NCBI RefSeq assembly: GCF_002797685.1
Contig: NZ_PGFH01000001.1
Coordinates: forward strand, 930,001-994,000
Direction of reading: 5' to 3'
DNA from: Salinibacterium amurskyense
GTDB taxonomy: Bacteria > Actinomycetota > Actinomycetes > Actinomycetales > Microbacteriaceae
DNA length: 64,000 nt
The translations under genes were made by a program, and so were the position numbers. The notes beneath the pieces are model-generated. The model was not told the origin of the DNA. It ran no database searches and saw only the letters and a program-made list of their open reading frames with translations. Shown here one piece after another: positions 30,074 through 41,278 of the stretch (positions are counted from its first letter, which is position 1; the number at the start of each line of letters is the position of its first letter).

Positions 30074-31090
30074 ATGTCGTCTGGTAGCACGGATGATTTT
30101 GGTGCGCCCTCGGTAGAGCCCGCCACGGACGCTCCGGTTTACCTCTCGCGCCGCGAAGCGCGCGCTGCCCGCGAGGCTGCCGCTGTGGGCAAGACCGTTA
30201 CTGCGGCCGCTCCCGCTGTGGTGCCCGAAGTTGTTGTGACCTCCGAGATCGCTGTTCCGCAGATTCCGACTGCGCCGGTGGCCGTCGCTCACGAGGCTGC
30301 CCCTGTTTTGTACGCGCCCACGGCATCCGCGAGTAGTGCGTCGCCGCGCGCTCGCACAGCTCCGAAAGTCAAGGCCAAGCGTGTTCGCAAGAGCCCGCTG
30401 CGTGCTGTTGCCTCGATGGCTGTCATCGGCGGCCTTTTCGCCGTCGCTGGCCTGCCGGCGTATAGCGCGACGGGGCTGGTTTCCGATGAAGGGATGATGG
30501 TCTCCGCGGCTTCGGTAGCGGATGCCGCACCGGCAAGCGTGCAGTCCGTGACAGTGAGTTCAGAGCTCGCCCTTCCTGAGCTCGAGCGCGATCAGTTCTC
30601 CGCAACGTCTCCCGAAGATTTGGAGCAAATCCGCCAGCAGGCAGCAGTTGCTTCGGCAAACGCGCTGTATGCCGCATCGGGTGCACAGGCTTTGGGCGAT
30701 GACTACCCGTGGCCGACTGCCGGCGACACGCTGTCGCCCCTCAACTATTACTACCGCCAGTGCACCGACTTCGTGGCATGGCGTCTGAACCGCGATGTCG
30801 GTTCGTTTTCAGCACCTTTCCGTTGGGCTTGGGCTGACCTCACTCCTAACGGCGGCGACGCCTACCAGTGGAAGTCGGCTTGGGAGGCACACGGTTGGAC
30901 CGTGAGCGCCACTCCCGTAGTCGGTTCGGTTGCATGGTTCGGTTGGGACAACCACGTGTCGTACGTGAAGCAAGTCAATGCCGACGGCTCGGTACTGATC
31001 GAGGAATACAACTACGTTTATCGCGCGTACGGTCAGCGCACGCTGCAAGCTAGCGAAGTTGAAGCGTTCCTTTACCCGCCAGGACAGTAG
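30074..31090 (+). CDS. CHAP-domain cell-wall amidase-like protein
   Basis: A 338-residue protein. A disordered Ala/Val-rich cytoplasmic region covers about 1-100, then a basic stretch (KAKRVRKSPLR) and one transmembrane or signal-anchor helix at ~112-130. A C-terminal CHAP domain follows, with the catalytic cysteine in YRQCTDFVAW and the histidine in WDNHVSYV. CHAP enzymes cleave peptidoglycan cross-bridges or amide bonds. The ATG at 30074 is used; a TTG at 30065 opens the frame. The 91-base upstream gap shows no long riboswitch-like structure. Confidence 0.85.
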   Translation: MSSGSTDDFGAPSVEPATDAPVYLSRREARAAREAAAVGKTVTAAAPAVVPEVVVTSEIAVPQIPTAPVAVAHEAAPVLYAPTASASSASPRARTAPKVKAKRVRKSPLRAVASMAVIGGLFAVAGLPAYSATGLVSDEGMMVSAASVADAAPASVQSVTVSSELALPELERDQFSATSPEDLEQIRQQAAVASANALYAASGAQALGDDYPWPTAGDTLSPLNYYYRQCTDFVAWRLNRDVGSFSAPFRWAWADLTPNGGDAYQWKSAWEAHGWTVSATPVVGSVAWFGWDNHVSYVKQVNADGSVLIEEYNYVYRAYGQRTLQASEVEAFLYPPGQ

Positions 31091-31157
31091 CTGTTTGGTT
31101 CGACAGCGCGCCTGCGGGTGTGACATCAGCGAGATCAACTTCGTGGAGTAATCCAGC

Positions 31158-31556
31158 ATGACCGACGACGAACTCATCACTACCTTCGAAGACGACACGA
31201 TTGCGCCTGCCGCGTTCTCCCATGAACGACACGTACGTGTGGCGTGGCTGCTGGCACGCAAATACGGTGAAGCCGATGGCTTCGCGCGTCTCGTCGTCGG
31301 CATCACAAGTATGGCGGTGCGCGCCGGCAAGCCGGATGCTTTCCACCTCACGATGACCCGCGCGTGGTTTGATCTCATTGCGCTCGTTGACGATGTGGAT
31401 GCCGCGCCAGAGCTGCTCGATAAGTCGATCATCAAGCGCTTCTACTCGCCCGAGCGCATCGCTGCGGGCCGCGCGCAATGGCTCGAGCCTGATCTGAACC
31501 CCCTGCAGTTTCCGCTTCCGGCGGCTGCTGAGGTTGCGGCTGCGCCGACCTCTTAG
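31158..31556 (+). CDS. conserved hypothetical protein
   Basis: A 132-residue soluble protein of a recurring but unnamed family. Recognisable phrases are FSHERHVRVAWLLARKYGE near the N-terminus, the mid-region FHLTMTRAWFDLI, and the end region LLDKSIIKRFYSPERIAAGR. Conserved histidines and a tryptophan suggest a binding or enzymatic role, but none is known to me. It starts 67 bases after the CHAP gene and stands alone before tRNA-Arg. Confidence 0.7.
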   Translation: MTDDELITTFEDDTIAPAAFSHERHVRVAWLLARKYGEADGFARLVVGITSMAVRAGKPDAFHLTMTRAWFDLIALVDDVDAAPELLDKSIIKRFYSPERIAAGRAQWLEPDLNPLQFPLPAAAEVAAAPTS

Positions 31557-31614
31557 CATGCCGGCGATCGGCTGAGGATGCTCAGCGTGGGTCTCGACTA
31601 CACTCGAACCGCTG

Positions 31615-31689
31615 GCCTCTGTAGCTCAACGGAAGAGCAACTCCGTCCTAAGGAGCAGGTTGGGGGTTCGAATCCCTCCAGGGGCACCA
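31615..31689 (+). tRNA. tRNA-Arg (anticodon CCT)
   Basis: The acceptor stem GCCTCTG pairs with CAGGGGC with one G-U. The anticodon stem CTCC/GGAG encloses GTCCTAA giving CCT. The T arm is GGGGG-TTCGAAT-CCCTC, and the 3' CCA is encoded. It reads AGG arginine codons. Confidence 0.95.
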
Positions 31690-31804
31690 AGACGATTGAG
31701 CGCCTTCGCATTCAGGTCACGCTCACGAACGACCAGCACCATAGAAGACTCGGGCGAATCGGAGAGCACTGTTTCGCCGTCCCTGAATCGAGAGGATGAG
31801 TTGC

Positions 31805-32311
31805 ATGTGGTTCGATTCGTGGCCTGACTTGGTGCGCATTGCGGTGGTCGGCGCAGCCGGTTACGCAACGCTCCTTATCGTGTTGCGAATATCTGGCAAG
31901 CGCACGCTGGCGCAACTGAATGTCTTTGACTTCGTCGTGACCGTTGCGCTCGGATCGATTTTCGCCACTCTGTTGCTCAATACCGATGTTTCTTGGTCGG
32001 AAGGTCTTGTAGCGTTCGCGGTGATCGCAGCGCTGCAATTCATCGTGGCCGGGGTGACCGCTCGCTGGCCTGCCGCTCGAAAGATCGTGACATCCAGTCC
32101 GATCCTGCTCTTGAGTGACGGCGTAATGCGGCACGATGCGCTGAAGCGCAGCCGCCTGACTAAGTCTGAGGTTCGCCAAGCAATCCGTGGGAGTGGGGCA
32201 GGGGGAGTCGCGGATATCAAATGCGTCGTTCTCGAAACCAACGGAAAGCTCAGCGTCATTCCGGTCGACAAGTACGGTGATGGTTCCGCGCTCGTCGACA
32301 TCGAACTGTGA
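31805..32311 (+). CDS. DUF421 membrane protein (YetF-like)
   Basis: A 168-residue protein with three N-terminal hydrophobic helices (about 9-28, 39-59, 64-82) followed by a cytoplasmic DUF421 domain (GKRTLAQLNVFDFVVTVALGS, then SEVRQAIRGSG and LETNGKLSVIP). Members such as YetF are implicated in spore or envelope functions, but the general role is unclear. The ATG at 31805 has GAGAGG nine bases upstream; an ATG at 31796 abuts it. It precedes the GlpP gene. Confidence 0.85.
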   Translation: MWFDSWPDLVRIAVVGAAGYATLLIVLRISGKRTLAQLNVFDFVVTVALGSIFATLLLNTDVSWSEGLVAFAVIAALQFIVAGVTARWPAARKIVTSSPILLLSDGVMRHDALKRSRLTKSEVRQAIRGSGAGGVADIKCVVLETNGKLSVIPVDKYGDGSALVDIEL

Positions 32312-32384
32312 CCGGTACTCAGCGTTTGCCGTTTACCTGAGCGTTACCGCTGCGCCAACTGCGGTGGTTAACGTAAACATCAAC

Positions 32385-32987
32385 ATGAGCGAGTTGAGAT
32401 GGCGTGGCACAGCGACGGGGGAGTTTCCTCTCATCGCCTCTGTGCAAGAACACGGCATGCTCAACGATGCACTCGAGAGCGACGTTGCGCGTATCAACTT
32501 GCTGGTCGGAGACATCAACTCTCTCGCCGGCATGGTGGCGCGCATCCACGACGCGGGTAAGACAGCGCATGTGCACCTCGAACTCGTTGGAGGCATCAGC
32601 CGCGACGGTGCCGCGGTGCAATTTCTCGCAGAACACGTCGGCGTCGACGGAGTGATCACCACCAAGAGCGCAGCGGTTGCTGCCGCTCGAAAACTCGGCA
32701 TCGCGTCGGTGCAGCGCTTCTTCGCGGTCGACACCCACGCTGTCGAGAATGCGATGCGTCAAGTGCACGCCAGCCGCCCCACCGAGGTCGAAGTGATGCC
32801 TGGGCTGATGCCGCGAGTGATCCGTGACCTCCGAGCCAGCATCCAGCAGCCCCTCATCGTTGGCGGGCTCATCCGTAATCCTGACGAAATCGATGCCGTG
32901 CTCGATTGCGGCGCCGACTACGTATCTACCGGAAACCCCGCACTGTGGCGGCGTCGACGGTCACGAATTCATACCCGCGTCGCCTAA
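32385..32987 (+). CDS. glpP: glycerol-3-phosphate-responsive antiterminator, GlpP-like
   Basis: A 200-residue protein of the G3P_antiterm family, a TIM-barrel RNA-binding regulator. Matching segments are the N-terminal PLIASVQEHGMLNDAL, then VHLELVGGISRDGAAVQFL, GVDGVITTKSA, and the phosphate-binding end PLIVGGLIRNPDEI and GADYVSTGNPALW. In Bacillus subtilis GlpP with glycerol-3-phosphate lets polymerase pass leader terminators of glpD, glpFK and glpTQ. Here the next 200 bases contain a leader terminator before GDPD genes, the same logic. The start is taken at the ATG 32385; a GTG at 32364 is possible. Confidence 0.9.
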   Translation: MSELRWRGTATGEFPLIASVQEHGMLNDALESDVARINLLVGDINSLAGMVARIHDAGKTAHVHLELVGGISRDGAAVQFLAEHVGVDGVITTKSAAVAAARKLGIASVQRFFAVDTHAVENAMRQVHASRPTEVEVMPGLMPRVIRDLRASIQQPLIVGGLIRNPDEIDAVLDCGADYVSTGNPALWRRRRSRIHTRVA

Positions 32988-33082
32988 CCTCGACGCTTCG
33001 CGAGGCAGCACACCGCCTCACCAGAACGACCCGCAGCATCCATAACTGAACACATCCCCCAGGGCAGAGTCACTAGAGAGCA

Positions 33083-33159
33083 CCCGGAGGGTCAGCACTA
33101 TCAACGCGCACGGCACCGCCGTGTGGTGCGTTGGCGGTGCTGACTCCCCGGGTTTTTTT
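33083..33159 (+). terminator. leader terminator before the GDPD/Ugp operon, likely GlpP target
   Basis: A long hairpin pairs 33083-33098 with 33137-33152 (one mismatch, one G-U). The loop holds a nested CACGGC/GCCGTG hairpin and a CAACGC/GCGTTG pair. Seven T residues follow at 33153-33159, and the GDPD start codon is 30 bases further. A competing GAGTCA at 33067-33072 could pair with TGACTC at 33141-33146. With GlpP encoded directly upstream, this is a candidate antitermination site. The region 32988-33082 otherwise shows only a possible promoter. Confidence 0.85.
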
Positions 33160-33188
33160 ATGCCCCGAACCACACGAAAGAAGCACCC

Positions 33189-33980
33189 ATGACCGCGTCA
33201 CCCCTCATCCTCGGCCACCGAGGAGCCATGGCTTACGCCCCAGAGAACACCCTCGAAGCCTTCGAACTGGGTGCCGATCAGGGCGCGGACGGCATGGAGA
33301 TCGACATTCACGCCACGAAGGACGGCGTGATCGTTGCCATTCACGATGACACCATCGACCGCACGTCGAACGGCACCGGCCGCGTCTCGGAACTCACCTT
33401 CGCTGAACTGCGCCGCTTGGATTTCGGAACCGGTAACGCGGGCGACTACGCGGGGGCTCTCATCCCGACCCTTGATGAGATCTTCGATCTCGTCGAACGC
33501 CGAAGCCTCGTGCTGAACATCGAAGTCAAAGACATCTACCGCCACGATGCCACGTACGGCGAGCTCGCTCGTCGGGCCGCTGACGAGGTCCTGCGTCGCG
33601 GCCTTAACGAGCAAGTTTTCTTTTCATCGTTCAACCACACATCGATGGCCCAGCTCAAGATCAGCCACCCCGACGTGCGCACCGGGCTACTGCACATGAT
33701 GTCGTTGCACGAAATTGGCCACTATGCCGCGACGACCCAGGCGGATGCCATCCACCCGGCCCAGCTCGCGGTCACGCCAGAAACGATGGAGCAAGCGCGC
33801 GCGGCGAATCTTCGCGTGAATGCGTGGACGATGCCAGCCCCGTTCTCGAGCCTGAGCGAAACGGAACAGATCGAGCAACTGATTGCTGCGGGCGTCGACT
33901 CGATCATCACCAACATCCCCGATGTTGCGGTGGCCCAGCGTGCGGCAGCGGCCGCCCTGAGCGCGGGGGTGCTCGTATGA
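33189..33980 (+). CDS. glycerophosphodiester phosphodiesterase 1
   Basis: A 263-residue cytoplasmic GDPD that hydrolyses glycerophosphodiesters to sn-glycerol-3-phosphate and an alcohol. The catalytic set is complete: H10 and R11 in GHRGA, E37 and D39 in MEIDIH, H52 in AIHDD, and the later ENT, K of NIEVKD and NAWTM motifs. There is no signal peptide. It is the first gene after the leader terminator. Its TGA overlaps the next start (ATGA). Regulation through GlpP would let the product, glycerol-3-phosphate, induce the operon. Confidence 0.92.
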   Translation: MTASPLILGHRGAMAYAPENTLEAFELGADQGADGMEIDIHATKDGVIVAIHDDTIDRTSNGTGRVSELTFAELRRLDFGTGNAGDYAGALIPTLDEIFDLVERRSLVLNIEVKDIYRHDATYGELARRAADEVLRRGLNEQVFFSSFNHTSMAQLKISHPDVRTGLLHMMSLHEIGHYAATTQADAIHPAQLAVTPETMEQARAANLRVNAWTMPAPFSSLSETEQIEQLIAAGVDSIITNIPDVAVAQRAAAAALSAGVLV

Positions 33981-34771
33981 CGCTCGTTTTTGCTCGACGC
34001 GGGGCGGCCGACGTCGCTCCGGAGAATTCACTGGTCGCGATTGAGCATGCGCTGCGCGACGGAGTGGATGGAATCGAGGTCGAGGCGCGGCTATCGCGCG
34101 ACGCTGAGCTAGTCGTCATTCGTGACGCGAGCGTTTCCGTCTCATCTGTAGCCCATGATGGCGCTGCGAAAGCTAACGACGGGGCCGTCGAACAGCGTGT
34201 GCTCGTTGAGCAACTCACCCTCGCCGAGCTCAAAACCGTCGACATCGGCGGCCGCCACGACGGGTGCGGCGGTACACGCATTCCCACTCTGGCAGAGGTG
34301 TTCGATCTGCTCGCTGGCTCCGACGCGCACCTTGTCGTCGATATCAAGGAAGACCCGCAGCACCGGGAGGGCGCGAGTCCTGCAGCAATCGCGGTTGCCG
34401 AGCTAGTACGAAAACGGGACCTGCACGATCGTGTGACTCTGACATCCACCAATCACATTTCGATGGCCGCGATTTCTGTGGCGCATCCGAAACTGCAGGT
34501 GGGGCTTCGTCACTTGGTGGTGATGGAGGAGTCCGCACAGTACGCGGCGGAGTTGGGCGCCGGCTCGCTTCACCCGGTGTCGGTCGGTGCTGCCGTCGGT
34601 GATGTGAACGATGAGGAGCGCTCTGTCATGGTGTGCGCGTCCACTCTGGTCGCTGCATTCTGGCCCGTCTCCGAAGAAGATCAGCTCGACCAACTCTTCG
34701 AGCTGGGCGTTGACGCGGTAGTGACCGACTCCTACCAGAGTGCCCTCACACGCCGGGGAGCATCCGCATGA
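33977..34771 (+). CDS. GDPD-family pseudoenzyme
   Basis: A 264-residue GDPD-fold protein aligned end to end with its two neighbours, but with the active site lost. The HRG histidine is Arg (R7 in ARRGA), the E-x-D pair is E-x-E (E34, E36), and the HD histidine is Arg (R49-D50). The NAWT segment is also changed (VCASTL). PEN, LAELK and RIPTLAEVFDLL are kept. The frame is open with good codon use and ATGA overlaps on both sides, so it is a maintained gene, not decay. It could be a regulatory subunit or a sensor of the substrate. Confidence 0.85.
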   Translation: MTLVFARRGAADVAPENSLVAIEHALRDGVDGIEVEARLSRDAELVVIRDASVSVSSVAHDGAAKANDGAVEQRVLVEQLTLAELKTVDIGGRHDGCGGTRIPTLAEVFDLLAGSDAHLVVDIKEDPQHREGASPAAIAVAELVRKRDLHDRVTLTSTNHISMAAISVAHPKLQVGLRHLVVMEESAQYAAELGAGSLHPVSVGAAVGDVNDEERSVMVCASTLVAAFWPVSEEDQLDQLFELGVDAVVTDSYQSALTRRGASA

Positions 34772-35586
34772 GTTCCACAGCATCCACGAACGGCGAGCAA
34801 GCGACTATCGACAGTCGCATCATTGCCCACCGAGGTGCGAGCCACTACGCACCAGAGAACACCCTTGCTGCCTTCGAACTCGCGGTCGACATGGGGGCAA
34901 CAAAAATTGAACTGGATGTCGACGTCACTCGTGATGGTCAGCTGATAGTGATGCACGACTCTCGTGTCGATCGCACCACCAACGGCATGGGTCGAGTGCG
35001 CGATTACACCCTGGCCGAGCTTCGCGAACTCACCGCGGACCGGGGTTGGGAGGGGCAGTTCGCCCGTTCGGAGATTCGAGTACCTACTCTCGCCGAAGTA
35101 CTTGAATTCGCCGGCGCACGAGACCTGTGGGTGAATATCGAAACTAAAGATTTCACCAACTCGTGGGGCACGGTCAATGACCTCGTTGCCGCGGAAGTCG
35201 CGGCATGTGATCGTGTTGAGTCGACTCTTGTCTCGTCGATCAATCACCGCGCCGTGGCAGGGTTCGCCCGCTCCTACCCGCAGTTCAGCACCGCGATTGC
35301 GTTCATCGAAACATTCGCTGACCTGCCCGGCTATGCCCGCCGGTGCGGAGCGAACGTGCTGCATCCGCACTTCTCACTGATCAACGAGCAATTCGTCGCC
35401 GAAGCACGCGAGCACGGCTTGGGCATCAACGCCTGGACCATCGACGATGACGCCGCGGCCGACCACATTCTTGAGTTCGACATCGACGGGCTGATGTCGA
35501 ACCGCCCCGACGTCGGCACCGCACTGAACCGCACCAACCAGCATCCATCCCACCGCTCATCTCACGTCACGGAGGCACACGCATGA
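34768..35586 (+). CDS. glycerophosphodiester phosphodiesterase 2
   Basis: A 272-residue GDPD with intact catalytic residues: H21 in AHRGA, E48 and D50 in IELDVD, H63 in VMHDSR, and NIETKD and NAWTID further on. An N-terminal polar tail of about 15 residues and a His-rich C-terminal tail are variable. It overlaps both neighbours by ATGA, so it is translated in one coupled chain with the pseudoenzyme and the transporter ATPase. Two active copies may serve different head groups; that is a guess. Confidence 0.92.
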   Translation: MSSTASTNGEQATIDSRIIAHRGASHYAPENTLAAFELAVDMGATKIELDVDVTRDGQLIVMHDSRVDRTTNGMGRVRDYTLAELRELTADRGWEGQFARSEIRVPTLAEVLEFAGARDLWVNIETKDFTNSWGTVNDLVAAEVAACDRVESTLVSSINHRAVAGFARSYPQFSTAIAFIETFADLPGYARRCGANVLHPHFSLINEQFVAEAREHGLGINAWTIDDDAAADHILEFDIDGLMSNRPDVGTALNRTNQHPSHRSSHVTEAHA

Positions 35587-36665
35587 GTCAGATCGAACTG
35601 CGAAACATTGGCAAGTCGTATGGCGACAAAGAGATCATCCCGAGCCTTGATCTCACGATCGAAGCCGGCAGCTTCTCGGTACTCGTCGGCCCCTCGGGCT
35701 GCGGAAAATCGACAACCCTTCGCATGATTGCCGGGCTCGAAAAGCCCACGACCGGCACTATCTCGATCGGCGGAAAAACCGTCGACGACGTGACCCCCGG
35801 TCGGCGGGGCGTGGCCATGGTGTTCCAGAACTACGCGATCTATCCGACGATGACGGTCGAAGAGAACATCGAGTTTGGCCTGCGCAACAACAAGGTTCCG
35901 AAAGCTGAACGTCGCGAACTTGTGCACGAAATCGCCGAGACTGTGGGGCTCACTGCCCATCTGCGCAAGAACCCCGACGCACTTTCTGGCGGAGAACGTC
36001 AACGCGTCGCCCTCGCTCGCGCCATGGTGAAGAAGCCTGCGGTCTTTCTGATGGATGAACCGCTCTCGAACCTCGACGCCAAGCTTCGTCAACACATGCG
36101 CATTGAGCTCATTGAACTCCACGAACGTCTCGGTGCCACTTTCGTCTACGTCACTCACGATCAGGTCGAAGCGATGAGCATGGGCACGTCGATTGTTCTG
36201 ATGGATGGGGGCCGCATCCAGCAGCAAGCCGCGCCCACCGAGCTGTACGCGAAGCCGCACAACGTGTTTACGAGCCGTTTCATCGGTACGCCGCCGATGA
36301 ACGTGTTGCGTGTTGGCTCTTTCGGGGCAGATGTCGCATCGGATGCCCCCGCCGGTGCCGAGTGGCTCGGCGTGCGTCCCGAACGAATTACCTTCGCTGA
36401 CACCAGCCGCCCCGCAGTTCCGGGCGAAACCGAGCTCGCCGTCACGATCCTTGCGCTCGAGAATCTGGGGGCGGAGCTCGTGTATCGCGTCGAGCTGCCC
36501 GACGGATCGCGGCTCGCCATTAAGCGCTTCGATGAGATTGCGCGCCCGCTCGGTCACGCCGTAGTGCGTGTCGAGAGCACCGACATCCACTGGTTCGATG
36601 CGAACGAGGAACGCATCGCTGAGCCCGCTATCCCCGGCGCCGTTCGCGAGGTCGTCTCCGCATGA
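35583..36665 (+). CDS. ABC transporter ATP-binding protein, UgpC/MsmK-like
   Basis: A 360-residue ATPase of the carbohydrate/glycerol-phosphate importer type. Walker A GPSGCGKST, Q-loop FQNYAIYPTMT, signature LSGGERQR, Walker B LMDEPLSNLD and the switch histidine VTHDQ are intact. A C-terminal OB/TOBE regulatory domain follows from about 240. It starts by ATGA overlap with the GDPD and ends by ATGA overlap with the permease. The operon context suggests glycerophosphodiester or glycerol-3-phosphate import. Confidence 0.92.
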   Translation: MSQIELRNIGKSYGDKEIIPSLDLTIEAGSFSVLVGPSGCGKSTTLRMIAGLEKPTTGTISIGGKTVDDVTPGRRGVAMVFQNYAIYPTMTVEENIEFGLRNNKVPKAERRELVHEIAETVGLTAHLRKNPDALSGGERQRVALARAMVKKPAVFLMDEPLSNLDAKLRQHMRIELIELHERLGATFVYVTHDQVEAMSMGTSIVLMDGGRIQQQAAPTELYAKPHNVFTSRFIGTPPMNVLRVGSFGADVASDAPAGAEWLGVRPERITFADTSRPAVPGETELAVTILALENLGAELVYRVELPDGSRLAIKRFDEIARPLGHAVVRVESTDIHWFDANEERIAEPAIPGAVREVVSA

Positions 36666-37543
36666 AGAATGCCCTGTTGAGAGATCGGCGATTGCTGCCG
36701 TACGCCTTGATTGCGCCGGCGCTGGTAATTCTCGCCGTCTTCTATCTGTATCCGATCGGCTACAACGCCGTGCTCAGCGTCTTCTCCTGGGACCTTCGCG
36801 GCCCCATGAAGTTCGTGGGTTTCGGAAACTTCGCCGAGCTCTTCACCGACCCGGACTTCGGCAAGGTCATCCAGAACACACTCGTTTACATGGGCATGGA
36901 AGTGTCCCTCGTGATGATCTTCGGCCTCATCTTGGCGCTGTTTCTCAACCGCCAAGGCTGGCTGAGCGAGTTCTTGCAGGGCGTCAGTTTCGCGCCCAAC
37001 GTGATTGCCCTCGTTTCTGTCTCGCTCATTTTTGTGTGGTTGATGGATGACGACATCGGGCTGTTCAACCAGATCTTGAGCGCGGTCGGGCTGGAGCCCG
37101 TTGGCTGGCTTTCCGACCCGCAAGTTGCCCTGTTCTCCTTGGTGCTGGTTTCGGTGTGGAAGTCGGTCGGGCTCAACGCGCTGATCATCCTGTCGGCACT
37201 GCAGTCGATTCCGCGGTATCTATTTGAAGCTGCTGACCTCGACAACGCTTCCGCCTGGACCCGCTTTCGCCGGATCACGATCCCGATGATTTCGCCGACC
37301 CTGTTCTTTCTCGTTCTCGTGAACGTCATTGGCTCCTTCCAGGCCTTCGACACGATCAACGTCATGACCCAGGGCGGTCCCCAGAGCTCGACCAACACGC
37401 TCATCTTCAGCGTTTATCGCGAGGGCTTCGAGTACTACCGGGTCGGCTACGCCGCGGCAATCGCCGTCGTGCTGATGGTTCTCGTGGGGCTCATCACTGT
37501 TCTGTACTTCCGCGCCTTCCAGAAAAGAGTGCACTACCGATGA
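36662..37543 (+). CDS. ugpA: ABC transporter permease, UgpA-like
   Basis: A 293-residue sugar-type permease with six transmembrane segments. The EAA loop is EAADLDNASAWTRFRRITIPMI near residues 188-209. It corresponds to the MalF/UgpA subunit. It overlaps both neighbouring genes by four bases. The symbol follows operon logic; a different polyol-phosphate or sugar substrate is possible. Confidence 0.88.
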   Translation: MKNALLRDRRLLPYALIAPALVILAVFYLYPIGYNAVLSVFSWDLRGPMKFVGFGNFAELFTDPDFGKVIQNTLVYMGMEVSLVMIFGLILALFLNRQGWLSEFLQGVSFAPNVIALVSVSLIFVWLMDDDIGLFNQILSAVGLEPVGWLSDPQVALFSLVLVSVWKSVGLNALIILSALQSIPRYLFEAADLDNASAWTRFRRITIPMISPTLFFLVLVNVIGSFQAFDTINVMTQGGPQSSTNTLIFSVYREGFEYYRVGYAAAIAVVLMVLVGLITVLYFRAFQKRVHYR

Positions 37544-38478
37544 CAACGACGATCGCTCCTCCCGCGCCGCCAACGGCATCCGGTTCTCCCCACGGAGCCG
37601 CTGCGAGTCCTGTACCGCCAACGACACCGTCCACAGCCGCGCCGAAGATTGCTGCGTTGCTCGGGAAAGTCGTTCGAATTTTCGCGCGCATCATCGTCTC
37701 GATCCTGCTCGTGCTGGTGTTCGCTGGGCCGTTCTACTGGATGGTGCTCACGGCCTTCCAGACGGCATCCGAAGCGCTGTCGATCCCTCCGCAGTTCTGG
37801 GTCGATGCCGTGCGCTGGGACAACTTCATCGCAGCGTTCGACCGGGTGAACTTTGGCCACTTCGCGTTGAACTCGGTGATCGTCACTGGCGGAACTCTCC
37901 TCGGGCAGTTTCTGATCATCGTGCCGGCGGCCTATGCCTTCGCGCGCTTTCAGTTCAAGGGTCGCGATGTTCTCTTTGGCGTCGTGCTTGCGACCATGAT
38001 GATCCCCGGCCAGTTGATCTTCCTTCCCGTCTTCGCGATGTACGCCAAAATGGGGCTGCTCAACACGCACCTCTCGCTGATCCTTCCGTTTATTGCGAGT
38101 GGCTTCGGCATCTTCCTGCTGCGTCAAACCTTCATGCGGGTTCCCGACAGCCTTATCGAAGCAGCGCGACTCGATCACGCGAGCGAGTTCACGATTATTC
38201 GACGAATCATGCTCCCCTTGGCGAAACCGACGATCGTCACGATTGGGCTCATTACGTTCATCGGCACCTGGAATAACTACTTCTTCCCGCTGGTGTGGAC
38301 GACGACGGATGCCGCCCGCACGCTGCCCGTCGCTGTGCCGCGCCTCGAAGCGCTTGACGAGATTGCGCCCACGATCGTGATGGCAGGAAACATGCTCCTC
38401 GTCGTGCCGATCCTCATCGTCTTCCTCCTCGCACGCCGGCACATCATCTCGGCGTTCACCTATACCGGCGTCAAGTGA
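37540..38478 (+). CDS. ugpE: ABC transporter permease, UgpE-like
   Basis: A 312-residue permease of the MalG/UgpE type. A 35-residue Pro/Ala/Thr-rich N-terminal tail precedes six helices. The EAA loop is IEAARLDHASEFTIIRRIMLPLA near residues 205-227. It pairs with the UgpA-like protein as a heterodimer. The start overlaps the previous stop. The long low-complexity N-terminus is unusual and might be shortened if a later start were used, but no later start is well placed. Confidence 0.88.
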   Translation: MTTTIAPPAPPTASGSPHGAAASPVPPTTPSTAAPKIAALLGKVVRIFARIIVSILLVLVFAGPFYWMVLTAFQTASEALSIPPQFWVDAVRWDNFIAAFDRVNFGHFALNSVIVTGGTLLGQFLIIVPAAYAFARFQFKGRDVLFGVVLATMMIPGQLIFLPVFAMYAKMGLLNTHLSLILPFIASGFGIFLLRQTFMRVPDSLIEAARLDHASEFTIIRRIMLPLAKPTIVTIGLITFIGTWNNYFFPLVWTTTDAARTLPVAVPRLEALDEIAPTIVMAGNMLLVVPILIVFLLARRHIISAFTYTGVK

Positions 38479-38564
38479 TGCCCCTCAGTTTCCCTGTCCG
38501 CACCAACTCACAACGCACCACCGCATCACGCACCACCACAACCCCCTCAAAGAAAGGCACCACC

Positions 38565-39890
38565 ATGTCCTCCACCCGTTCTTCGCGAGGTCGGGCACGC
38601 GCCGGCGTACTCGCTTCGATTGCCCTCGGCTCGGTTCTGCTCTCCGGCTGCACGGCAGCCAACGCGGATGCCGCGACCTACACCTATGAGCCCGGCGAAG
38701 AGACTGTCGAACTCGAGTTCTGGACCGCCGCAGTAGAAGACGTGAACCAGGAACTCGTTGACATGTTCAACGAGACCCGTGGTGAAGAGCTGAACATTCA
38801 CGTCACCGCCAACTACCAGGGCGACTACGTCGAGACCGAACAGAAGGTCAATGCGGCAGCGCTCGCCGACACTCTCCCCAACATGTTTGTGGATGAGGTC
38901 GGGATGACCGAGCGTTTCGCTCGCGCTACGACGACGCTCAACCTTGAGCCCTACATGGCTGCGGCCGGCATGGATGACGCGGACTTCCAGATGGGGGAGA
39001 CCGACAACCTCTACGTTGACGACGAGATGTACGCGTTCCCGCACATGCGCAGCGTGCCTGTCATGTACGTCAACCAGGACATGATGCGGGAACTGGGCCT
39101 CAAAGAGACCGGCCCGGAGACCTTCGACGAGTTCGAGGATTACCTCGAGGCAGCTCACGACTATGTCGGCGGTCCGGCCATGATCTTCTGCGACTACGAC
39201 TTCTGGGTCATGGAAGCACTCTTCTACTCGTATGGCGGAACCGCTGTGCTCAACGACGATGAAACTGCGTCGATGTATGACACCGAGGGCGCAATCAAGA
39301 CCGTCGAGTGGATCGCCGACCTCGAAGACCGTGACCTCATCAAGGTCACCGGCGCAGCAGACGTGAGTGCATTCTTCGCTGCGGCGGGTAGTGCAGACAC
39401 CGCCTTCACGTTCCTCAGCTCGGGTGGCATCCAGTCGATCCTTGGTCTCGCTGCCGGTAACGGAGTGGATGTCGGAGTCTCGCTGATTCCCGCCGGCGAG
39501 AACGGCCAGCGCGGCGTCTCGGTCGGAGGATCGAACATTTACCTCGCCAACACGGGAACCGACCAGGAAAAGGCTGCTGCTTTCGAGTTCATGAAGTGGA
39601 CGAGCGACACTGAGCAGGCTGCGTACTCGTCGTCGCGCACCGGTTACCTTCCCGTTCGCCTCTCGGCATTGGAAACTGACCTGATCAAGGACCTCATGGA
39701 GACGACGCCCGGCTACGCGGTAGCTGCCGAGCAGATCACCTTCGGTAAGCCCCGCCCGATGACGAAGGCCTACAGCGAGCTCGAAGACCTCATGACGGAG
39801 CGCATCCACGCGATCTACTTCGATGACCTCGACGCTTCAGAAGCGATGTCGGCGCTCGCCGAAGAAGTTAACGCAGTGCTGAAACGCTAA
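38565..39890 (+). CDS. ugpB: ABC transporter substrate-binding lipoprotein, UgpB-like
   Basis: A 441-residue type-1 sugar-like binding lipoprotein. The signal peptide ends at the lipobox LLSGC. The mature domain starts VELEFWTAAVEDVNQELVDMFNE, typical of the UgpB/MalE family. The frame is open from 38475, but AGAAAGG before the ATG at 38565 and the signal peptide fix the start. It is the last gene of the operon and sets specificity, probably for glycerol-3-phosphate or glycerophosphodiesters, by inference from the GDPDs and GlpP. Confidence 0.88.
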   Translation: MSSTRSSRGRARAGVLASIALGSVLLSGCTAANADAATYTYEPGEETVELEFWTAAVEDVNQELVDMFNETRGEELNIHVTANYQGDYVETEQKVNAAALADTLPNMFVDEVGMTERFARATTTLNLEPYMAAAGMDDADFQMGETDNLYVDDEMYAFPHMRSVPVMYVNQDMMRELGLKETGPETFDEFEDYLEAAHDYVGGPAMIFCDYDFWVMEALFYSYGGTAVLNDDETASMYDTEGAIKTVEWIADLEDRDLIKVTGAADVSAFFAAAGSADTAFTFLSSGGIQSILGLAAGNGVDVGVSLIPAGENGQRGVSVGGSNIYLANTGTDQEKAAAFEFMKWTSDTEQAAYSSSRTGYLPVRLSALETDLIKDLMETTPGYAVAAEQITFGKPRPMTKAYSELEDLMTERIHAIYFDDLDASEAMSALAEEVNAVLKR

Positions 39891-39907
39891 CCACGGCCCA
39901 CGCACGC

Positions 39908-39943
39908 AAAGGCCGCAAGCAGGAACACCTGCTTGCGGCCTTT
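39908..39943. terminator. bidirectional terminator, perfect 16-bp stem
   Basis: AAAGGCCGCAAGCAGG pairs perfectly with CCTGCTTGCGGCCTTT around an AACA loop. It sits between the convergent UgpB-like gene and the FtsX-type permease gene and can end transcription from both sides. Confidence 0.92.
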
Positions 39944-39964
39944 GTCATTTACCGAGCTGCGTGG

Positions 39965-41278
39965 CTATTCGTACCGCAGCGACTCCACCGGGTCAGCCTT
40001 GGCTGCACGGGCCGCGGGCAGCGTGCCCGCGAGGAACGCGATTGCCATGACGACGAGGATGATGACGGTGATCGAGAGCGGATCGAACGCGATCAGGGTC
40101 AGTCCGGGGAGATCAGCGAGCACCGCTCCGGAGAGCACCGAACTGATGGCGGTTCCGGCGAGCATTCCGATGCCGGCACCGATGGCGCTACCGAGGAAGC
40201 CGATGAAGACGGCTTCGAGGCTGAAGAGTCCGAAGATCTTGCCCCCGCCCATTCCCATGGCTTTCATCAGTCCGATTTCGCGGGTGCGTTCCTGCACCGA
40301 CATGAACAGGGTGTTCACGATGCCGAAGCTGGCGGCGAGAAGGGCGATGATGGCGAAGGCGTTCAGTACGAGCACGATCGCGTCGATAACGGTCTTGATG
40401 GTGCCGAGTTGGTCAGCGACGGTCGTTCCCGTGAAGCCCGCATCGGCGAGATTGTCTTTCAGCGCCGTGATGTCTGCATCGGTAGCGTTGGCATCAAAAC
40501 GGATGCTGGCCGTGGCGTACCGCTCCAGCTGGTCGTCAGGTAGGCCAATATTTTGGGTGTCGTAGAGGCTGTCGGTCAGCGCCGCGTTCACAACGAGACC
40601 GCCGGCACCGGGAGCGGCGACGCTCTCTTCGGCGACACCAACCACGGTGGCGTCGACGAGATGCTGGGTGCGCTCGGCGTCAGTGATGGCGATCGTGATG
40701 GTCTCGCCAACTGCCGCATCGGCGTCGGAGAAGCCCAAAGGCTCGACATAGGAAATGGGGAGGTCGAGCTCGAAGGCGTCAGAGGTGGCATCCGGTTCTT
40801 CGCCGGCAGCAAGCTGCACGCTTTGACCGGCCACGAGGCCGCCAACCGAGGTGACGTACTGAGTGCCATCGCCGTACTGAATCCAGTCGGGAGTGATTGA
40901 CTTGGTGGCTTCAACGCTCAAAACACCATCGACATCGGCGAGGTCATCGAGCAGTTCGGGCGTGAGCGCGACTACGGTTCCGCCCTCATTCGGGCCAAAC
41001 CCGCCGCTTGAAACAGCTTCGGGGTCGTATTCGGTGGGGCCTGAGGTGGCGCCGCCGAAGCCGCTATCGGCATCCGGAGTCACTGTCACCGTCATGACAT
41101 CTTCGGCACCGATTGAGGTGACAGTGTCGTCAATGTACTGGTTAATGCCGGTGCCCAAGCCGTTGGTGATCGTGAGGGTAAAGGCTCCGACGAAGATCGC
41201 GAGGATGGTTAGAATCGTGCGGGTTTTTGAGCGGAAGGTATTGGCTACCGCAGTGGTGAAGAGGTCGAGAGTTTTCAT
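39965..41278 (-). CDS. MacB/FtsX-type ABC transporter permease
   Basis: A 437-residue permease with one N-terminal helix (about 20-40), a large extracytoplasmic MacB_PCD domain (~45-300) and three C-terminal helices forming the FtsX domain (about 305-330, 352-385, 395-425). The end AARAAKADPVESLRYE is typical. It exports or extracts hydrophobic molecules or transmits mechanical force, depending on family. It overlaps the ATPase stop by four bases. The divergent two-component genes may control it. Confidence 0.9.
   Translation of the reverse strand: MKTLDLFTTAVANTFRSKTRTILTILAIFVGAFTLTITNGLGTGINQYIDDTVTSIGAEDVMTVTVTPDADSGFGGATSGPTEYDPEAVSSGGFGPNEGGTVVALTPELLDDLADVDGVLSVEATKSITPDWIQYGDGTQYVTSVGGLVAGQSVQLAAGEEPDATSDAFELDLPISYVEPLGFSDADAAVGETITIAITDAERTQHLVDATVVGVAEESVAAPGAGGLVVNAALTDSLYDTQNIGLPDDQLERYATASIRFDANATDADITALKDNLADAGFTGTTVADQLGTIKTVIDAIVLVLNAFAIIALLAASFGIVNTLFMSVQERTREIGLMKAMGMGGGKIFGLFSLEAVFIGFLGSAIGAGIGMLAGTAISSVLSGAVLADLPGLTLIAFDPLSITVIILVVMAIAFLAGTLPAARAAKADPVESLRYE

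Follow-up and report, generated by a model that had tools for sequence, protein, structure and literature searches.

A glpP gene, a terminator hairpin, three genes of the GDPD family and the ugpC-A-E-B-like genes of a transporter follow one another on the plus strand of a stretch of the Salinibacterium amurskyense genome (assembly GCF_002797685.1, contig NZ_PGFH01000001.1, positions 930,001 to 994,000 of the forward strand; genome size, 2.78 Mb). The whole stretch of 64,000 nucleotides (nt) is referred to here as the window. These genes probably form a horizontally acquired, self-contained operon for glycerophosphodiester uptake that is under GlpP-type transcriptional attenuation. The genes, the terminator, the box motif described below, their conservation, an antiterminator helix at the level of the leader group and a Bacilli-like origin were all established by computation. 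Two other genomes of the genus, Salinibacterium sp. SWN248 (L022) and Salinibacterium sp. NG253 (L023), also carry the operon; L numbers denote comparison loci or sources fetched from other genomes. An earlier note on this DNA had described a GlpP-family gene, a long hairpin with a T7 tract, three GDPD-fold genes and an ABC importer, and all of these were confirmed.

The glpP gene starts with the ATG at 32385 and ends with the stop codon at 32985-32987. Its product matched Pfam family PF04309 over residues 17-188 with 184 bits against a cut-off of 27, and among solved structures it matched PDB 3kts, a Listeria protein, at an E value of 1.1e-23. It retains 24 of the 31 columns that are conserved (at least 85%) among 48 Bacilli GlpP proteins, and two of the seven deviations fall in columns that are invariant in Bacilli (P87 to V and D133 to T). 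Judged by its protein family, from which we infer both RNA binding and the ligand, the product is predicted to be a glycerol-3-phosphate-dependent antiterminator. In Bacillus, GlpP with glycerol-3-phosphate relieves the terminators before glpD, glpFK, and glpT, each of which has a GlpP binding site (PMC9604022), and GlpP antitermination is likewise stated in a second paper (PMC7430163).

Bacilli leaders near glpP contain two purine boxes, NGAG(A) and NGAGA, that end at the foot of a terminator. A first search pattern with fixed spacing was dropped as too rigid, and 4 to 8 bases were then allowed between the boxes. The box pattern combined with a terminator had a single match in the window, at 33066. 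A matrix made from 34 Bacilli boxes, with the four actinobacterial matches left out, ranked position 33062 first over both strands of the window with 12.7 bits, the next site scoring 11.0 bits. The two boxes of the window leader abut the 5' arm of the terminator, as they do in Bacilli glp leaders. Among 52 terminator-like hairpins in 22 actinobacterial sources, five have the box (the window, L022, L033, L060, and L069), all of them near glpP, and none of the other 47 do; of these five, the window and L022 are homologous, and L069 is doubtful, with its hairpin about 700 nt upstream. In 20 Bacilli loci, the box was found at 9 of 73 terminator-like hairpins, six before glpP-ugp operons, one before a ugpB gene opposite glpP, and two (L105 and L122) before glpD-like genes. 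When the genome of S. amurskyense was searched for other boxes with up to three mismatches, eight matches were obtained, of which only the leader was exact. The seven inexact matches look like chance, as a reversed control pattern gave 25; the search did not cover boxes of another form. The shared box, the conserved leader and the Bacilli operons in which box, glpP, and ugpCAEB occur together support the antitermination by GlpP that the earlier note had deduced from gene order and the hairpin.

Three further observations were made on these leaders. In the Bacilli loci L105 (5058), L088 (2046), and L122 (2538-2594), a box leader stands ahead of a gene for a glpD-like FAD oxidoreductase that lies near glpP. 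In L103 and L105, ugpC- and ugpE-like genes also lie upstream of glpP. Upstream of the box leaders of the window (33044-33059) and L033 (10696-10711), a similar stretch, AACTGAACACAT, is followed by a run of C; it is possibly a shared promoter element or a product of chance.

The segment 33075-33165 folds at -56.2 kcal/mol (z score of -6.9), and none of 200 shuffled sequences was as stable. The 30 base pairs of the terminator were compared between the window and L022/L023: 25 are the same, 3 have a change on one side, 2 have changes on both sides, and none is broken. The hairpin therefore looks like a real terminator under selection. The three species do not differ over the 42 nt of 33057-33098, which comprise the two boxes and the lower part of the 5' arm; the upper hairpin has changed. 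Twenty-six of these invariant bases (33057-33082) lie directly upstream of the terminator stem; the outermost C of the antiterminator hairpin described below, at 33056, is not conserved. The earlier note had asked whether the leader hairpin is kept in relatives with glpP beside the operon, and both box and hairpin are kept in L022 and L023. Only 29 nt separate the T run from the start of GDPD 1, which leaves little room for a separate promoter, and the operon is thus most simply reached by read-through. A simple consensus terminator scan did not list the hairpin at 33083-33152 (four sites found, 7.7 expected in shuffled sequences), probably because that scan is limited to short loops without bulges.

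In most box leaders, the sequences that flank the box pair, before box 1 and after box 2, can form a stem whose 3' side also serves as the terminator's 5' arm. The two structures are mutually exclusive because both use this arm. In the window, CCCCC-A-GGG (33056-33064) pairs with CCC-GG-A-GGG (33083-33091), and both boxes lie in the loop. Prefixes of the window RNA are predicted to fold into this two-box hairpin, with a similar stem in L022 and L023. Compared to the best fold in which the two-box stem is retained, the full terminator is more stable by 15 kcal/mol, as expected if a protein must hold the antiterminator stem. We obtained 40 distinct box-plus-terminator matches, and removal of two off-target ones (L024 and L103, both on the minus strand) left 38 leaders, among which the doubtful matches L069/L047 and L112 at 3090 were kept. 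For all 40 matches, the stems formed by a leader's own flanks were better than every re-pairing (0 of 20,000 permutations as good), and for the 35 matches with a distinct upstream flank, 1 of 20,000 permutations was as good. Helices of 4 bp or more are formed by the own flanks in 29 of the 38 leaders, compared to 38% of cross-pairs (0 of 2,002 permutations as good). The antiterminator helix is thus supported by covariation over the 38 leaders as a group. It is argued for the window from this group because the window stem is not significant by itself.

The distribution of the operon genes and their trees point to Bacilli. PF04309 was found above the cut-off in 3 of 27 genomes of the genus, 12 of 249 of the family, and 12 of 396 of the order (the genome of S. 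amurskyense being counted each time); in the class to which Neobacillus belongs, it was found in 140 of 200 genomes. Against the window UgpA, the six closest Bacilli proteins score 285 to 314 bits, and the best genus paralogue fetched scores 197 bits. At an E value of 1e-70, UgpA was found only in the genome of S. amurskyense itself among 394 of the class, with six candidates scored per genome. The three Salinibacterium proteins join seven Bacilli proteins in the UgpA tree (support, 99/98), in which the actinobacterial rows are mostly genus paralogues. In the GlpP tree, Salinibacterium joins Bacilli (91/88), nearest to an Alicyclobacillaceae protein (93/80); 13 actinobacterial GlpP proteins form a clade of their own (100/100), another 8 lie elsewhere, and Salinibacterium stands apart from both. 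Seven of the 20 extra Bacilli loci, which were chosen by hand and are mostly second glpP copies, so that operon frequencies are not those of a survey, have glpP followed by ugpC-A-E-B within about 0.7 kb, and in all seven glpP is preceded by a box leader. Four of the seven also have a GDPD gene after the ugp genes; the other three stretches end too early.

By blastn, homology to three of the five relatives fetched (L188, L190, and L191), none of which has PF04309, stops at 31687/31688, the 3' end of a tRNA-Arg gene, and resumes at 39953-39966. For the other two, L189 and L192, there is no alignment upstream of the block. The block, about 8.3 kb long, looks like the cargo of a tRNA-linked variable site, because homology breaks at the 3' end of the tRNA gene and the relatives hold other DNA there. 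No second copy of any 12-base word from the tRNA region 31615-31692 was found in the window, no integrase was found by Pfam among the annotated genes of the block (not every small open reading frame was searched), and base composition does not distinguish the block. The trees, the patchy distribution in the genus and the homology break together indicate that the block was probably gained horizontally from a Bacillota- or Bacillus-like source. The "actinobacterial unit" of the earlier note is thus present in an actinobacterium but appears to have been acquired from a Bacillota-like source. We lean toward a wider reading in which a single RNA switch is common to the GlpP proteins of at least two phyla. 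It would consist of a short antiterminator hairpin whose loop carries the two GAG boxes and which competes with the terminator for the 5' arm of the latter. On this reading, the Salinibacterium operon is a portable version of the system that arrived by transfer, regulator, switch, importer and enzymes having entered the tRNA-Arg locus as one.

Two observations concern the site itself. Between the tRNA-Arg (CCT) gene and an FtsX-like permease gene (31615-39966), L188, L190, and L191 carry other DNA of 1.4 to 5.5 kb. In L189 (5055-13010), a YetF homologue and an FtsX-like gene flank different cargo, which looks by eye like a sugar ABC operon, and no tRNA gene was found in the stretch fetched.

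All three GDPD proteins passed the PF03009 cut-off of 23.6 bits (157.6, 86, and 157.9 bits for GDPD 1, 2, and 3, respectively). GDPD 1 and GDPD 3 retain the HRG, ENT, E-x-D, and HD motifs; the closest PDB structure to GDPD 1 is 2pz0 (E value of 1e-45), and no signal peptide was seen in this protein by eye. The histidines of the HR and HD motifs of GDPD are catalytic. In all three species, both are present in GDPD 1 and GDPD 3, which are predicted to be active, and both are absent from GDPD 2, in which RRG replaces HRG and RD or RG replaces HD. GDPD 2 is probably a retained non-enzyme, so the earlier claim of three GDPD-fold genes stands by Pfam cut-off, but the second gene lacks both catalytic histidines. 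The identity of GDPD 2 across the three species is 70%, lower than that of its neighbors; the protein may have a regulatory or binding role, or the gene may be decaying. The genes from GDPD 1 onward overlap, judged from the ends of the open reading frames, by five ATGA sequences (33977, 34768, 35583, 36662, and 37540) and one GTGA (38475), in keeping with the mostly ATGA overlaps of the earlier note. For ugpB, the start is uncertain; the likely one is the in-frame ATG at 38565 (position counted by eye), which lies ahead of a lipoprotein-like signal. The nearest PDB structures to the UgpB-like protein are 4mfi (E value of 7e-22) and 6r1b (E value of 1e-21), named UspB and UgpB. Ugp models of NCBIfam are the best matches for all four transporter proteins; the importer is thus Ugp-like by best match, and it is uncertain whether it is a true UgpBAEC member.

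Several results weigh against reading these genes as an acquired glycerophosphodiester uptake operon under GlpP control. None of the four Ugp matches reaches its NCBIfam cut-off, and the transport substrate is therefore uncertain. The GlpP tree supports of 91/88 and 93/80 are below the level that the program stars, and long branches were flagged. L022 and L023 are close kin, so the leader conservation amounts to about two lineages. The box expression was framed after the window had been seen, and box 1 of the window reads GAGTC rather than the commoner GAGA. By energy, the antiterminator stem of the window is no better than chance (z score of -0.06), and 36% of shuffled flanks form a stem as strong as its GGG/CCC. 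Between 31000 and 41000, the consensus scan turned up nothing resembling a promoter. Finally, a covariance model, R1, built from 18 complete Bacilli leaders, missed the leader both in the window (matches up to an E value of 10) and in the genome. Its matches there were three unrelated ones in the window (E values of 4 to 9) and one weak one elsewhere in the genome (E value of 2.8). Among 37 sources, R1 gave seven matches, two in L070, which is a training sequence, and one each in L034, L036, L035, L060, and L065, and it also missed L022, L023, the Bacilli ugp-type leaders L024 and L025, and the actinobacterial L033. R1 was rejected as a detector of whole leaders, and the likeness of the window leader to Bacilli leaders therefore lies in the box and the layout.

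The best-surviving alternative is that GlpP recognizes the two boxes in single-stranded form and itself opens the foot of the terminator, with no antiterminator hairpin. In the 18 aligned Bacilli leaders, box 2 pairs with the 3' edge of the terminator (in 16 to 18 of the 18 at four positions), and GlpP binding alone would therefore shorten the terminator; the stem of the window is, moreover, weak evidence on its own. Binding to a single strand does not predict that own-flank complementarity in the 38 leaders is far above that of cross-pairs, and we regard direct melting as possible but rather unlikely. It is improbable that glpP is monocistronic and the hairpin no more than its 3' terminator, with the GDPD and Ugp genes under their own promoter and GlpP acting elsewhere. 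A terminator right after such a gene would look alike, and the consensus scan, which saw no promoter-like site anywhere in 31000-41000, cannot speak against a downstream promoter; the 29-nt gap before GDPD 1 does, as do the 26 invariant bases and their Bacilli-type box, which this explanation leaves unaccounted for, and the lack of any other exact box in the genome. An effect mainly on mRNA stability or translation is more improbable still: in a review (PMC7430163), GlpP is credited with stabilizing glpD mRNA besides antitermination, but the hairpin has the appearance of a complete intrinsic terminator with T7 whose pairing is kept between species. That the leader answers another ligand or is an unrelated riboswitch, with glpP adjacent by chance, is hardly credible, since its sole support is the failure of R1, no Rfam family came near threshold in the leader, and the box occurs with GlpP in two phyla. 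The Rfam search of the leader gave an overlapping viral microRNA family on the minus strand at 23.5 bits against a threshold of 70, and Rfam assigned no family to any of the leaders tested.

Table 1. Features of the acquired block in the window, with the evidence for each
Feature	Position	Strand	Evidence
tRNA-Arg (CCT)	31615..31689	+	ARAGORN; left boundary of acquired block by blastn against L188, L190, L191
YetF-like membrane protein gene	31796..32311	+	Pfam PF04239 and PF20730; inside block
glpP, predicted glycerol-3-phosphate-responsive antiterminator	32385..32987	+	PF04309, 184 bits; PDB 3kts, E 1.1e-23
Predicted antiterminator hairpin	33056..33091	+	Prefix folds of window, L022, L023; covariation over 38 leaders
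GlpP box 1, AGAGTC	33066..33071	+	Regular expression plus terminator scan; Bacilli box matrix
GlpP box 2, TAGAGA	33074..33079	+	Regular expression plus terminator scan; Bacilli box matrix; identical in L022, L023
Intrinsic terminator (stem-loop 33083-33152, T7 33153-33159)	33083..33159	+	Fold energy; pairing kept
GDPD 1, predicted active	33189..33980	+	PF03009, 157.6 bits; motifs kept
GDPD 2, degenerate	33977..34771	+	PF03009, 86 bits
GDPD 3, predicted active	34768..35586	+	PF03009, 157.9 bits; motifs kept
ugpC-like ABC ATPase gene	35583..36665	+	Best NCBIfam match UgpC, 373.7 bits (cut-off 432)
ugpA-like permease gene	36662..37543	+	Best NCBIfam match UgpA, 172.1 bits (cut-off 335)
ugpE-like permease gene	37540..38478	+	Best NCBIfam match UgpE, 107.4 bits (cut-off 297)
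ugpB-like solute-binding lipoprotein gene	38475..39890	+	PF13416; sole NCBIfam match UgpB, 58.5 bits (cut-off 411)

The YetF-like gene, which has a match in 5 of 27 genomes of the genus, lies in the block and is not counted here as part of the regulated unit.

Under attenuation by GlpP, for which we infer RNA binding, glycerol-3-phosphate dependence, substrate, termination in vivo and feedback, the operon would work as follows. RNA polymerase would start upstream of the boxes, and the nascent leader would first fold into the small hairpin whose loop carries the two GAG boxes. When no ligand-bound GlpP is present, this hairpin would give way to the terminator, which is far more stable and takes up the 3' side of the small stem as its own 5' arm, and transcription would stop before GDPD 1. 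GlpP with bound glycerol-3-phosphate would hold the small hairpin in place and so keep the terminator from forming, and gdpd-gdpd-gdpd-ugpCAEB would be transcribed. Intact glycerophosphodiesters would then be imported by UgpCAEB, GDPD 1 and GDPD 3 would cut them in the cytoplasm, and the glycerol-3-phosphate released would keep GlpP active in a positive feedback. If this is true, GlpP antitermination extends from the glycerol genes of Bacillota to a Ugp/GDPD operon for phospholipid scavenging and to actinobacteria. It would also provide a concrete, mutable model of GlpP on RNA, with two boxes in a loop and a stem that excludes the terminator, and the rule of box plus stem would allow GlpP regulons to be predicted across genomes. 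This account of the GlpP RNA switch is possibly new. In the literature that we searched, we found nothing on GlpP control in actinobacteria, on Ugp genes controlled by GlpP, or on the two-box hairpin; part of the binding site may already be described in the original Bacillus papers, which date from the 1990s. A GlpP-type gene is merely named in a Streptomyces paper (PMC9206652), and another is named as part of a glp locus in a Cupriavidus paper (PMC7912956).

Among actinobacteria, the operon resembles 21 other Micrococcales glpP loci (L027-L036, L041, and L060-L069), in which GlpP stands, where checked, beside genes of glycerol-3-phosphate metabolism (FGGY kinase, FAD oxidases, SDR, and MFS). 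In contrast, none of their GlpP proteins groups with that of Salinibacterium, and a GDPD-like match lies beside glpP in only one of the 21, L032, where it is only distantly similar. Box leaders precede FAD-linked oxidase and FGGY kinase operons in L033 (10735-10785) and L060 (7478-7541), the latter also with MFS and SDR genes; the box-flanking stems are 7 bp in L033 and 6 bp in L060. R1 gave weak matches on the minus strand of L034 (16544-16500, 17.5 bits), L035 (16357-16300, 12.6 bits), and L036 (15991-15920, 13.3 bits), with E values of 0.03 to 0.8, at the start of operons whose last gene is glpP; that of L036 comprises MFS, FGGY kinase, glycerol-3-phosphate oxidase-like, and FAD oxidase genes. 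In L032/L193 (Microbacteriaceae), glpP (L032 9847-10566) lies near a divergent ABC importer (L193 3882-9925, corresponding to L032 11882-17501) that consists of a solute-binding protein, two permeases and an ATPase, followed by a fusion of GDPD and inositol monophosphatase domains, which suggests uptake of glycerophosphoinositol. The box scan found no box at L032. This is not the same operon, but a second pairing of GlpP with glycerophosphodiester genes in the family.

In Escherichia coli, the ugpBAECQ operon combines the Ugp importer with the cytoplasmic GDPD UgpQ, a combination like the one predicted here, but it is controlled by phosphate starvation via PhoB and not by RNA antitermination. 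The GlpP system of Bacillus subtilis, with its glpD, glpFK, and glpTQ leaders (glpQ is a GDPD gene), shares a GlpP-family protein and a leader terminator with the Salinibacterium operon. In contrast to that system, the switch here stands before genes for three GDPD proteins and a Ugp-like ABC importer, the host is an actinobacterium, box 1 is the GAGTC variant, and the leader taken as a whole differs too much to be detected by the Bacilli leader model. The Bacilli box-glpP-ugpCAEB operons (L109, L110, L111, L112, L116, L117, and L120) are like the Salinibacterium operon in regulator, transporter genes and box-terminator leader, and their UgpA proteins are 47 to 51% identical to that of the window in six of the seven and 35% identical in L112. 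However, the box precedes glpP in these operons, so that glpP is inside the switch; in Salinibacterium, glpP lies upstream of the switch and could therefore be made without inducer, and the three GDPD genes are placed first.

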